Shown here piece by piece: positions 35,287 through 38,741 of a stretch of 42,525 bases of DNA. Numbering within the stretch: position 1 is the first letter of the stretch; every line of letters starts with the position of its first letter. Source of the DNA: Hyphomicrobiales bacterium (GTDB taxonomy: Bacteria; Pseudomonadota; Alphaproteobacteria; Rhizobiales; Rhizobiaceae); NCBI GenBank assembly GCA_011087605.1, contig JAALLE010000028.1, forward strand, positions 1 through 42,525. The letters are read 5' to 3'. Below the pieces are notes generated by a model. That model was not told the origin of the DNA. It worked only from the letters and a program-made list of their open reading frames with translations, and ran no database searches. The position numbers were made by a program, and so were the translations under genes.

Positions 35287-35296
35287 CATACAAAAA

Positions 35297-35330
35297 AACG
35301 CTCGCTGCGGGAGGAGGTGCAGCGAGCGTT
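35297..35330 (-). ncRNA. CUCCUCCC-loop hairpin 3, with intrinsic terminator
   Basis: Arms AACGCTCGCTGC (35297-35308) and GCAGCGAGCGTT (35319-35330) form a perfect 12-bp stem. On the minus strand the 10-nt loop is ACCUCCUCCC and the stem is followed by a run of seven U, making this both a CcsR/cuckoo-type hairpin and the terminator of the DUF1127 transcript. The motif is complementary to Shine-Dalgarno sequences. Confidence 0.8.
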
Positions 35331-35338
35331 CTATTTGC

Positions 35339-35373
35339 GGTTCAGCTGTTTTTGGGAGGAGAAGAGCTGAACC
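35339..35373 (-). ncRNA. CUCCUCCC-loop hairpin 2
   Basis: GGTTCAGCT (35339-35347) and AGCTGAACC (35365-35373) are perfect 9-bp arms. The minus-strand loop reads CUUCUCCUCCCAAAAAC, carrying the same CUCCUCCC core as its neighbours although the stems differ in sequence. No U tract follows it, so it is probably released by processing from a common transcript. Confidence 0.72.
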
Positions 35374-35379
35374 TCTTTC

Positions 35380-35406
35380 AGCCGATAATGGGAGGAGTGA
35401 TCGGCT
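35380..35406 (-). ncRNA. CUCCUCCC-loop hairpin 1 (closest to DUF1127 stop)
   Basis: AGCCGAT (35380-35386) and ATCGGCT (35400-35406) are perfect 7-bp arms; the minus-strand loop is CACUCCUCCCAUU. It begins 12 bp beyond the DUF1127 stop codon and is the first of three such hairpins. Confidence 0.7.
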
Positions 35407-35417
35407 TGAAGCTGTGT

Positions 35418-35564
35418 TTAGCGGCGTGAAGCGCGCTGTGCGATGAATGGGATATCACCGCGTGTGATACCAAGATCATCCAACTCACGGTTGGAAAGGC
35501 TGCTGAGTTCTTTGCGTGTCTGACGAACGCGGTTCCAAGTACGGATGTTTCCAAGAATATCCAT
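35418..35564 (-). CDS. DUF1127-domain micro-protein, 48 residues
   Basis: A 48-residue protein is read from ATG 35564-35562, with a GAAGGA ribosome-binding site 7-8 nt upstream, to TAA at 35418. The sequence includes RTWNRVRQTRKELSSLSNRE and then LDDLGITRGDIP, the canonical DUF1127 core (LSNRELDDLGI). DUF1127 proteins are Arg-rich and RNA-associated; CcaF1 of Rhodobacter sphaeroides is a DUF1127 protein affecting sRNA maturation and RNA turnover, and its gene is co-transcribed with CcsR sRNAs. The same arrangement follows here: three CUCCUCCC hairpins and a terminator lie immediately downstream on the same strand. Confidence 0.9.
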   Translation of the reverse strand: MDILGNIRTWNRVRQTRKELSSLSNRELDDLGITRGDIPFIAQRASRR

Positions 35565-35771
35565 AATCAAATTCCTTCAAAGGATGTCAGCGCTTCTGGC
35601 TGACCGGGTTGCTCGAAACGTCAATTGTTCCGTTGACAAACAAATAGGATGTTGGCGGATTTTTACGAGCGCAAAGACTGCATGTGAGCCATGCAAAAAT
35701 TGCAAGCCGGCACACAATTCGACCACAAGCATTAATAGTCGAACTGGTTGGCGACAGGTCGGGTTTGGAGC

Positions 35772-38741
35772 TTACTCTGCAGCCTGCAGCGGTCCTGATT
35801 TTTCATCCGCCTGACGTGCCAGAAGAGCTTTCAGGAAATGTCCGGTATAAGACCGCTCTTCCCTGGCAATATCCTCCGGCGTGCCTGCGGCAACGATTTC
35901 ACCGCCGCCATCGCCACCTTCAGGGCCCAGGTCGAGCACCCAGTCTGCGGTCTTGATAACTTCCAGATTGTGTTCAATCACAGCGACCGTATTTCCGGTA
36001 TCAACCAGTTCGTGAAGAACTTCCAATAGCTTGGATACATCGTGAAAGTGCAGTCCAGTCGTCGGTTCATCCAAGATGTAAAGCGTGCGGCCGGTGGCGC
36101 GTTTGGACAATTCCTTGGACAGTTTTACCCGTTGCGCCTCTCCACCCGACAGAGTTGTCGCTTGTTGGCCAATCTTGATGTAATCGAGACCCACTCGACG
36201 CAGCGTTTCCATTTTGTCGCGCACTGAGGGTACTGCGGCAAAGAATTCGCAGCCTTCTTCAACCGTCATATCCAGAACATCGGCAATTGATTTGCCCTTA
36301 AACTGCACTTCCAGCGTCTCGCGATTGTAGCGCTTGCCAGAGCAGACATCGCAGGTGACATAAACATCGGGCAAAAAGTGCATTTCAATCTTGATAACAC
36401 CGTCGCCCTGACACGCTTCGCAGCGCCCGCCCTTGACGTTGAACGAGAAACGACCGGGATTGTAACCCCTTGCCTTGGCTTCTGGCAGACCGGCAAACCA
36501 CTCCCTGATCGGCGTAAACGCTCCGGTATAAGTTGCCGGATTGGAACGCGGTGTACGGCCAATCGGGGATTGATCGATATCGATTATCTTATCGAGGTGT
36601 TCCAGTCCCTCAATGCGATCATGGGCGGCCGGGATATTGCGGTTTTTATTAATATGCCGCGCAGCCGCCTTGTAGAGTGTTTCGATCAGGAAGGTGGACT
36701 TGCCACCTCCGGAAACTCCGGTAACTGCGGTAAACGTGCCGAGTGGAATTTCGCCGCTGATTTTTTTCAGGTTGTTGCCACGGGCGCCAACCACTTTGAT
36801 CTTGCGCTGCTTGTTGATTTTGCGACGTTGTTTGGGGATGGCAACTTCCATGGCGCCGGACAAATATTTGCCGGTCAGGGAATCCTTGCAGGCCATGATG
36901 TCTTCGGGTGAGCCCTCGGCAATAATCTCGCCGCCATGAATGCCGGCGCGAGGTCCGATATCGACGACATGATCGGCCGTCAATATGGCGTCTTCGTCAT
37001 GTTCAACCACAATCACCGTATTTCCCAGATTGCGCAGATGCTGGAGTGTTTCCAAGAGTCGTGCATTGTCTCGCTGATGCAGGCCTATCGACGGTTCATC
37101 CAACACATAGAGCACGCCTGTCAGGCCTGACCCAATTTGAGATGCCAGCCTGATGCGCTGGCTTTCGCCGCCCGACAATGTTCCCGAATTGCGCGACAGG
37201 GTCAGATAATCCAGTCCCACATCGTTGAGAAACTGCAGGCGCTCGCGAATTTCCTTGAGAATGCGCACCGCAATCTCGTTTTGCTTGTCATTGAGCCTGT
37301 CGGGCAGGTCGGCAAACCAGATATTGGCCTGCTTGATCGACAATTCGGCGACTTCGCTGATGTGCTTTTTGTCGAGCTTTACAGCCATTGCCTCTGGCTT
37401 CAGCCGGTATCCCTCACAGGCCATGCAGGGCATGCGGGACATGAATTTTTCGATTTCCTCACGCATCCACGAACTGTCGGTTTCCCGCCAGCGACGCTCC
37501 AGATTGCCAATCACGCCTTCAAATGGCTTGGTGGTTTTATAGGTGCGAAGGCCGTCATCATATTTGAATTCAATAGACTTCTTGCCCGTGCCGTAAAGCA
37601 CCGCCGTATGGGCATCAGCCGTCAGATCCTGCCATTTGTCAGATATCTTGAAATTATAGGCCCGTCCCAATGCTTCAAGTGTCTGGGCATAATAGGGTGA
37701 CGAATTGTTGGACTTTGACCAGGGTGCAATTGCTCCCTTGTTCAGGGGCTGAGTCGGATCGGGTACCACCAGACTTTCGTCTATTTTCTGCTGGGTACCA
37801 AGACCGTCACAGGATGGGCAGGCGCCAAATGGGTTGTTGAACGAAAACAGCCGCGGTTCGATTTCTGGAATCGTAAATCCGGAGACCGGGCAGGCAAATT
37901 TTTCGGAAAATATAAGCCGCTCATGGGCTTCATTCTTCGATTTGTTTTTTGAACCACCGGCGGCCGTTTCAGAAGCGGGCAGGGGCCTGTCGGCAAGTTC
38001 AGCAATTGCCATGCCGTCTGTCAGCCGCAAGGCCGTTTCCAGTGAATCAGCCAACCGGGTGCTCATATCTTCACGCACAACAATTCGGTCGACCACGACA
38101 TCGATGTCGTGTTTGTACTTCTTGTCCAGTTCCGGCACGTCGGCGATCTCGTAGAATTCACCATCCACCTTGACCCGCTGGAAGCCTTTCTTCATCAGCT
38201 CGGCAAATTCCTTTTTGTATTCGCCTTTGCGGCCCTGAACGATTGGTGCCAACAGATAAAGTCGAGACCCTTCTTCAACCGCCATCACACGATCAACCAT
38301 CTGACTGACGGTCTGGCTCTCGATTGGCAATCCTGTGGCCGGAGAATAGGGCACGCCGACCCGGGCGAATAACAGCCGCAGATAGTCGTAGATCTCGGTC
38401 ACCGTACCGACCGTGGAGCGCGGGTTCTTGGAAGTGGTTTTCTGTTCAATCGAGATGGCCGGAGAAAGGCCATCAATTTGATCAACATCCGGCTTCTGCA
38501 TCATTTCCAGGAATTGACGGGCGTAGGCCGACAGGGATTCCACATACCGCCTCTGGCCTTCGGCATAGATTGTATCAAAGGCAAGTGAAGACTTGCCTGA
38601 CCCAGACAGGCCAGTCATCACGATCAGACTGTCGCGCGGCAGGTCAATATTCACATTTTTCAAATTGTGCTCACGCGCACCGCGCACCGAAATGACCTTG
38701 TCATCGGGTTTCATTGAAAGGGACTTGGATTTCGGTGCCAT
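35772..38741 (-). CDS. uvrA: Excinuclease ABC subunit UvrA
   Basis: UvrA is the damage-recognition ATPase of nucleotide excision repair. From ATG 38741 it has 989 residues; ATG 38714 and ATG 38801 are alternatives, and none has a strong ribosome-binding site. The core starts [20 protein letters not shown]. Two ABC modules are visible: Walker [13 protein letters not shown] and [12 protein letters not shown], signatures [16 protein letters not shown] and [16 protein letters not shown]. The large zinc-finger motif CEACQGDG...CDVCSGKRY is intact. The other zinc site reads [12 protein letters not shown]: the second cysteine of the usual CPxC is Ser. It is divergent from ssb, with an SOS box between. 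Confidence 0.96.

Follow-up and report, generated by a model that had tools for sequence, protein, structure and literature searches.

A conserved DUF1127 micro-gene and three-hairpin alpha-r14-type RNA behind a predicted LsrB/VtlR-type box in a Rhizobiaceae genome

Alpha-r14 RNAs have been described as three-hairpin molecules (PMC10746234, PMC7143759), and the loops of one of them, NfeR1 of Sinorhizobium, are reported to be redundant in blocking ribosome-binding sites and to silence ntrB (PMC10746234). NfeR1 is reported to be activated by LsrB, which binds TGCA-N6-GCAT in its promoter (PMC10746234). VtlR is reported to bind before the small gene atu1667 and before abcR1 at a box given as GCAT-N3-TG-N3-T (PMC7486931), and a further report, quoting CAATGCAGCCATGCA as the box, lists AbcR2 and three DUF1127 proteins as the main VtlR targets in Brucella (PMC12595884). 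Going by these reports, the VtlR box before DUF1127 genes and the LsrB box before alpha-r14 RNAs are already known, each separately. Short DUF1127 genes with CcsR-like RNAs are likewise in print as the CIN1 locus, for which PMC10253847 cites Reinkensmeier and Giegerich 2015. The partners reported for DUF1127 proteins are RNA or sensor kinases (PMC12501420): CcaF1 reportedly binds RNA and assists the maturation of the CcsR RNAs encoded in its operon (PMC10253847, PMC12501420), and YjiS of Salmonella, as told in PMC12501420, showed no RNA binding. A DUF1127 gene with such RNAs is a described kind of locus, to which the locus analysed here adds a well-conserved further member where both box contexts meet. 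The accessible parts of the literature surveyed make no mention of an LsrB/VtlR box before a CIN1 micro-gene and RNA, nor of such hairpins in phasin 3' untranslated regions (UTRs); Reinkensmeier and Giegerich 2015 and Grutzner et al. 2021 may contain either.

We analysed a 42,525-nt stretch of DNA, hereafter the window, which is one of the 177 contigs of a 4.19-Mb Rhizobiaceae genome. On its minus strand uvrA ends with its stop codon at 35772, followed after a 207-nt gap by the short open reading frame that an earlier note on this DNA had read as a DUF1127 micro-gene, a reading that Pfam confirmed (PF06568, 55.5 bits against a cut-off of 23.3). As in CIN1 loci, this short gene lies directly upstream of the RNA on the same strand, its stop codon separated from the RNA by 3 nt (Table 1). 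AGGA stands upstream of the start in all 11 other loci listed in the upstream alignment. The gene looks translated and the protein is under purifying selection, with dN/dS of 0.03-0.13 in all 10 comparisons with same-genus genes, in several of which dS exceeds 1. The nearest DUF1127 proteins come from Rhizobiaceae metagenome-assembled genomes.

Table 1. Features of the DUF1127-RNA locus, in positions of the window
Feature	Position	Strand	Basis
LysR box of predicted LsrB/VtlR type (TGCA-N6-GCAT core, 35691-35704)	35678..35704	-	Weight matrix and alignment
Putative -10 element CTATTT	35642..35647	-	Alignment; transcription would start near 35635
Shine-Dalgarno AAGGA of DUF1127 gene	35573..35577	-	From sequence
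DUF1127 micro-gene, 48 aa, ATG start	35418..35564	-	Open reading frame and Pfam
ar14 (alpha-r14 / cuckoo-type) three-hairpin RNA	35293..35414	-	RF02344 match
Hairpin 1, 7 bp, CTCCTCCC at 35390-35397	35380..35406	-	Hairpin search and covariation
Hairpin 2, 9 bp, CTCCTCCC at 35354-35361	35339..35373	-	Hairpin search and covariation
Hairpin 3, 12 bp (14 counting T-tract pairs), CTCCTCCC at 35309-35316, intrinsic terminator	35295..35332	-	Hairpin search and covariation
Run of seven T, transcript end	35292..35298	-	From sequence

Downstream of the gene, the three hairpins with a common loop core and a final T tract that had been described earlier were all found, with CUCCUCCC in the loop of each, spacers of 6 nt between hairpins 1 and 2 and 6 nt between hairpins 2 and 3, and the T tract after hairpin 3. 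Elsewhere in the window neither strand held a hairpin with CTCCTCC in its loop and at least 6 bp in its stem; 200 dinucleotide shuffles held a mean of 0.51 such hairpins and never two within 60 nt. The fold energy of 35288-35417 on the minus strand was -51.3 kcal/mol (z = -8.0), a value that none of 200 shuffles reached. The proposed kinship with cuckoo-type RNAs also stood: the Rfam ar14 model (RF02344) matched over its full length (model positions 1-123 of 123) at 75.5 bits against a cut-off of 58.8, and the RNA has the three hairpins, the anti-Shine-Dalgarno motif unpaired in every loop and the variable stems of that family. The covariance-model search suggested in the earlier note for cuckoo/CcsR RNAs was thus positive for ar14 and negative for CcsR1 (RF02791), for which the scores were 20.7 and 15.0 bits against a cut-off of 65.3; a CcsR1 identity was dropped on these scores. 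A generic promoter and terminator scan was uninformative, hairpin 3 lying outside its loop limit.

Comparison with related genomes, also suggested earlier, showed both loops and paired stems to be kept across 12 same-genus loci. Of 15 same-genus genomes, our own included, 12 have a DUF1127 gene immediately ahead of the three-hairpin RNA; 11 of these were recovered by the CTCCTCC hairpin finder and the twelfth is G004, whose drifted loops fall outside the finder's motif. In G007 the array stands at a contig start, and G008 and G014 gave no ar14 match. Of the 12 DUF1127 loci listed, 7 have uvrA upstream, a count in which G009 supplies two loci and G004 is left out. The aligned arrays number 12, one per genome (G000-G003, G005-G007 and G009-G013), excluding the second G009 locus and G004. 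Across these, 20 of 28 base pairs of the window structure had changes on both sides against a shuffled mean of 11.4 (7/7 pairs in hairpin 1, 6/9 in hairpin 2 and 7/12 counted in hairpin 3), and 88.2% of cells were paired, against 29.7-44.9% when the partner was slid by 1-3 columns. The expectation that stems diverge while loops persist held, through such compensating pairs and in mean pairwise identity, which was 0.937 in loops, 0.593 in stems and 0.500 elsewhere, a loop value that adding G004 would lower. RNAalifold run unguided recovered hairpins 1 and 3 and missed hairpin 2, which counts against the reading we prefer below, as does G004, where none of the three loops reads CTCCTCC at the expected place, so that the loops are not strictly kept. 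The G004 locus itself (L084, G004:C5:81618-83428, minus strand from 1192) retains the three stems with loops drifted from CTCCTCCC, and its LysR box still scores 22.7 bits.

Most of the 12 aligned loci share the block TGCA-N6-GCAT-(A/G)GCT-N4-TGC upstream of the DUF1127 gene, the departures being L068 and in part L025. Scored with a matrix built from 9 same-genus loci, excluding the window and its near twin, the window box reached 30.9 bits and was the best site of the whole window, the next best scoring 11.5. TGCA-N6-GCAT is exact in this box, and the VtlR form GCAT-N3-TG-N3-T fits except that TG is TC. Seven of the 12 aligned upstream sequences have CTATTT. Its spacing from the box agrees with the published layout of the NfeR1 promoter (PMC10746234); this putative -10 element has a poor -35 region and was not flagged by a generic sigma-70 scan.

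The box was also found beyond the training set, at a limit of 15 bits that was set after the window scores were seen. The ar14 sample contains 27 loci in which DUF1127 immediately precedes the RNA. Ten of them had served in training or are the window or its twin; among the remaining 17, the box lies upstream of DUF1127 in 10 and within the gene in none. No box of at least 15 bits was found in the other seven, which counts against the preferred reading. For named DUF1127 genes (the 45 beyond the seven closest, one of which did not qualify), a box in the 250 nt upstream was found at 15 of 27 with hairpins and 8 of 17 without (shuffles 0.02 per set); control stretches about 850 nt downstream gave 0/42 and the opposite strand of an upstream stretch 2/42. 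Because the box also precedes 8 of 17 hairpin-less genes, it follows DUF1127 as much as it follows the RNA. Within this genome the box precedes DUF1127 in the window and on contigs C58 (22.2 bits) and C113 (21.5 bits) and is absent at five others scanned; the C58 and C113 genes carry it without arrays, a further point against the preferred reading. Since the box is either upstream of DUF1127 or absent, and never inside the gene, no such box is left for the RNA alone where DUF1127 comes first. Taken with the boxes close to ar14 RNAs that have no DUF1127 found upstream (counted below), this is what one would predict of a box that drives both micro-gene and RNA at loci where the two are joined. 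A promoter of the RNA's own inside the DUF1127 gene was thought unlikely because no LysR box lies inside the gene in any of the 17 test loci, a test that covers box-type promoters only. The position of the window's single LysR box fits co-transcription of DUF1127 and the RNA and, as it precedes the gene, makes the RNA probably a 3' UTR product.

We found ar14 RNAs well beyond the genus. Among relatives, 33 of 61 exceeded the ar14 cut-off, comprising 32 of 37 from the same family and 1 of 24 from other families of the order. In a sample of the class our own genome was the only one of 289 over the cut-off among the matches listed, with at most 11 candidates scored per genome among these. Of 14 named loci scored with Rfam, which were chosen from 52 for having arrays, 12 exceeded the cut-off, with the L146 match preceding the gene; these included Paracoccus, Salipiger and Labrenzia, on account of which a restriction of ar14 to one family was dropped. 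Within 700 nt downstream of the 52 named DUF1127 loci and on the same strand, at least one hairpin was present in 34 and at least two in 28, the seven closest loci having two or three each; none of the 52 had downstream hairpins on the opposite strand, and the L152 sequence stops too soon after the gene for a fair count. Two or three hairpins also lie upstream of DUF1127 in 12 of the 52, where they probably belong to a neighbouring array. At nine loci (L120, L125, L130, L131, L140, L143, L144, L146 and L148) loop hairpins lie within 700 nt on both sides of DUF1127, which suggests an array-gene-array order.

Larger arrays were seen as well. Six to nine hairpins within 700 nt were counted at L149-L151 and L153 (Paracoccus, Salipiger, Cribrihabitans and Thioclava); CcsR1 was rejected for these four arrays as none gave a match over the cut-off, and L151 (6 hairpins) and L153 (8 hairpins) match neither the ar14 nor the CcsR1 model. 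In G034 (L065/L031, G034:C23:266663-267184), four head-to-tail ar14 units with twelve TCCTCC motifs follow one DUF1127 gene, the first unit scoring just below the cut-off. The other DUF1127 genes of our own genome, eight of the nine, were set aside as further CIN1 loci: seven were listed without a loop hairpin, and at the eighth (L039) the single hairpin, of 6 bp, does not share the strand of the gene. Among 65 ar14 matches over the cut-off, DUF1127 was found within 150 nt upstream of 28 and within 700 nt of 7, five of which are later tandem copies already counted, and was not found upstream of 30. Three of these 30 follow a phasin gene and one begins a contig; for 13 of the 30 a box stands no more than 200 nt from the RNA, where shuffles gave 0.04.

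These distributions bear on three other explanations. The hairpins might merely stabilise or terminate the DUF1127 mRNA without acting in trans, as the terminator-like hairpin 3 with its T run, the 28 matches with DUF1127 close upstream and the retention of stems with drifted loops in G004 would allow. We consider this improbable: a stabiliser would need stems and not a common loop sequence, whereas the loops are far better conserved than the stems, and the 30 matches without DUF1127 found upstream, 13 of them near a LysR box, also speak against it. The loops might instead bind a protein, either a C-rich RNA binder or the DUF1127 protein itself, for titration or for timing its own synthesis, with mRNA pairing secondary. 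The RNA binding and maturation role reported for CcaF1 (PMC10253847, PMC12501420) would suit this, as would the twelve loops behind one DUF1127 gene in G034; the same 30 matches, the pairing through three redundant loops reported for NfeR1 (PMC10746234) and the absence of RNA binding told for YjiS in PMC12501420 speak against it and leave it a slim chance. The third, put forward in the earlier note, is that three separate CcsR-like sRNAs are cut from the array, as CcsR1-4 are from the ccaF1 3' UTR in Rhodobacter (PMC8625941, PMC10253847), but the low CcsR1 and full-length ar14 scores, the three-hairpin form described for alpha-r14 RNAs and spacers of just 6 nt make it unlikely and leave it unsupported, the family pointing to one three-hairpin RNA.

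The reading we prefer, and hold to be probable, is that of one LsrB/VtlR-activated transcript carrying DUF1127 and an alpha-r14 RNA whose redundant loops pair with ribosome-binding sites. Its parts, their conservation and covariation, the Rfam membership and the box with its position are established in this analysis, and we infer the activator, the co-transcription, the processing, the targets and the role of the protein. An LsrB/VtlR-type regulator would activate one transcript of about 345 nt, from about 35635 to 35292 on the minus strand, with the DUF1127 micro-gene on it and the alpha-r14 RNA in its 3' part, and cleavage right after the stop codon would release a stable three-hairpin RNA of about 120 nt. 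In each of its loops CUCCUCCC resembles the ribosome's own anti-Shine-Dalgarno. The three loops would act redundantly, blocking the translation of transport and metabolism mRNAs by pairing with their strong ribosome-binding sites of GGAGG type, as is reported for NfeR1 in Sinorhizobium. The micro-protein from the same transcript may act separately, via RNA or a sensor kinase.

By analogy with NfeR1, the RNA likely pairs with translation starts, and anti-Shine-Dalgarno pairing, anticipated in the earlier note, gains support from its family as the likely mode. Candidate sites with GGGAGGAG 3-11 nt before an ATG occur 11 times in the genome, against 3 for the reversed pattern, and nine of the 11 open frames of at least 145 codons, one of them only from a TTG. 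Pfam searches on six of these nine returned an ABC permease, an NMT1-like solute-binding protein, a Na+/H+ antiporter subunit, a PNPOx-type oxidase, a TIM-barrel protein and an aminotransferase, so that transport parts make up three of the six candidate target proteins scanned. This would fit the transport bias told for NfeR1 without proving it, and the list is weak because strong Shine-Dalgarno sites would be enriched in any case. Autoregulation through the DUF1127 start was rejected, as the loops pair there at -4.4 to -5.6 kcal/mol, weaker than the random-stretch median of -7.2.

Contig C165 (L164, C165:1-6000) holds a candidate gene for such a regulator: a LysR gene stands there after trxB and a gene that by eye is dienelactone-hydrolase-like, and is followed by a one-mismatch box (19.2 bits), an arrangement that speaks for the preferred reading. 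Beyond the box is a stretch that folds with CTCCTCCC in a stem and gave no Rfam match at E 0.1. This contig end thus has the look of an LsrB/VtlR gene accompanied by an AbcR-like RNA. For the LysR protein the LsrB/VtlR label draws only on domain content, the neighbouring trxB and the box, which counts against the preferred reading, and among the 25 NCBIfam equivalogs listed none reached its cut-off.

Phasin genes carry related hairpins. In this genome a two-hairpin CTCCTCCC array starts at a phasin (PF09361) stop codon (L002, 1501-1586, minus strand; C150:67301-67386) and scores 38.4 bits against ar14, below the cut-off. In 12 of 54 phasin genes from this genome and its same-family relatives, a hairpin of this kind falls in the stretch running from 25 nt before to 220 nt after the stop, against 0.2 in shuffles, which suggests that the phasin 3' UTR is a second kind of host mRNA for the hairpin module. 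At L097 (G001), near 792 on the minus-strand reading, a CTCCTCCC hairpin lies before the phasin start, likely in the 5' untranslated part; such 5' hairpins number at least 1 in 54, with start codons assigned automatically and wrong for at least L097.

A broader proposal, for which we put the chances a little under even, is that one LysR-type box defines a regulon of anti-Shine-Dalgarno RNAs across the Rhizobiaceae and beyond, with the module set in several kinds of "nest": stand-alone genes that have the box nearby, DUF1127 3' UTRs with the box before the protein gene, and phasin 3' UTRs without the box. If this is true, the DUF1127 nest couples two known LsrB/VtlR branches, micro-protein and RNA, on one transcript, and the phasin nest would link the same RNA output to carbon-storage granules. 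The locus offers a testable link: LsrB/VtlR is reported to activate alpha-r14/AbcR RNAs and, separately, small DUF1127 genes, and one transcript would yield both here. It also bears on the function of DUF1127 proteins, because protein and anti-Shine-Dalgarno-like RNA would be made together.

Compared with known systems, the locus resembles alpha-r14 RNAs (RF02344) such as NfeR1 of Sinorhizobium meliloti in its three hairpins, each with a CCUCCUCCC-type loop, its divergent stems and a TGCA-N6-GCAT box in the promoter, but NfeR1 is reported to have its own promoter (PMC10746234), whereas the window's only such box precedes the DUF1127 gene. Like CIN1 loci such as ccaF1-CcsR1-4 of Rhodobacter sphaeroides, it has DUF1127 followed at once by CCUCCUCCC-type hairpins and one terminator. 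It differs from ccaF1-CcsR1-4 in encoding 48 aa rather than 71, in having one three-hairpin ar14 RNA rather than four CcsR RNAs, in its sub-cut-off CcsR1 score, and in a LysR-type box where RpoHI/RpoHII promoters are reported (PMC10253847), this last counting against the preferred reading. With the VtlR/LsrB targets of Agrobacterium and Brucella it shares the same box class before DUF1127 (atu1667 and the Brucella genes, as reported in PMC7486931 and PMC12595884) and, with the VtlR/LsrB systems of AbcR RNAs and small DUF1127 proteins more generally, a LysR gene near trxB adjoining a one-mismatch box in this genome. Unlike those Agrobacterium and Brucella targets, the micro-gene and an anti-Shine-Dalgarno RNA here apparently share one transcript.
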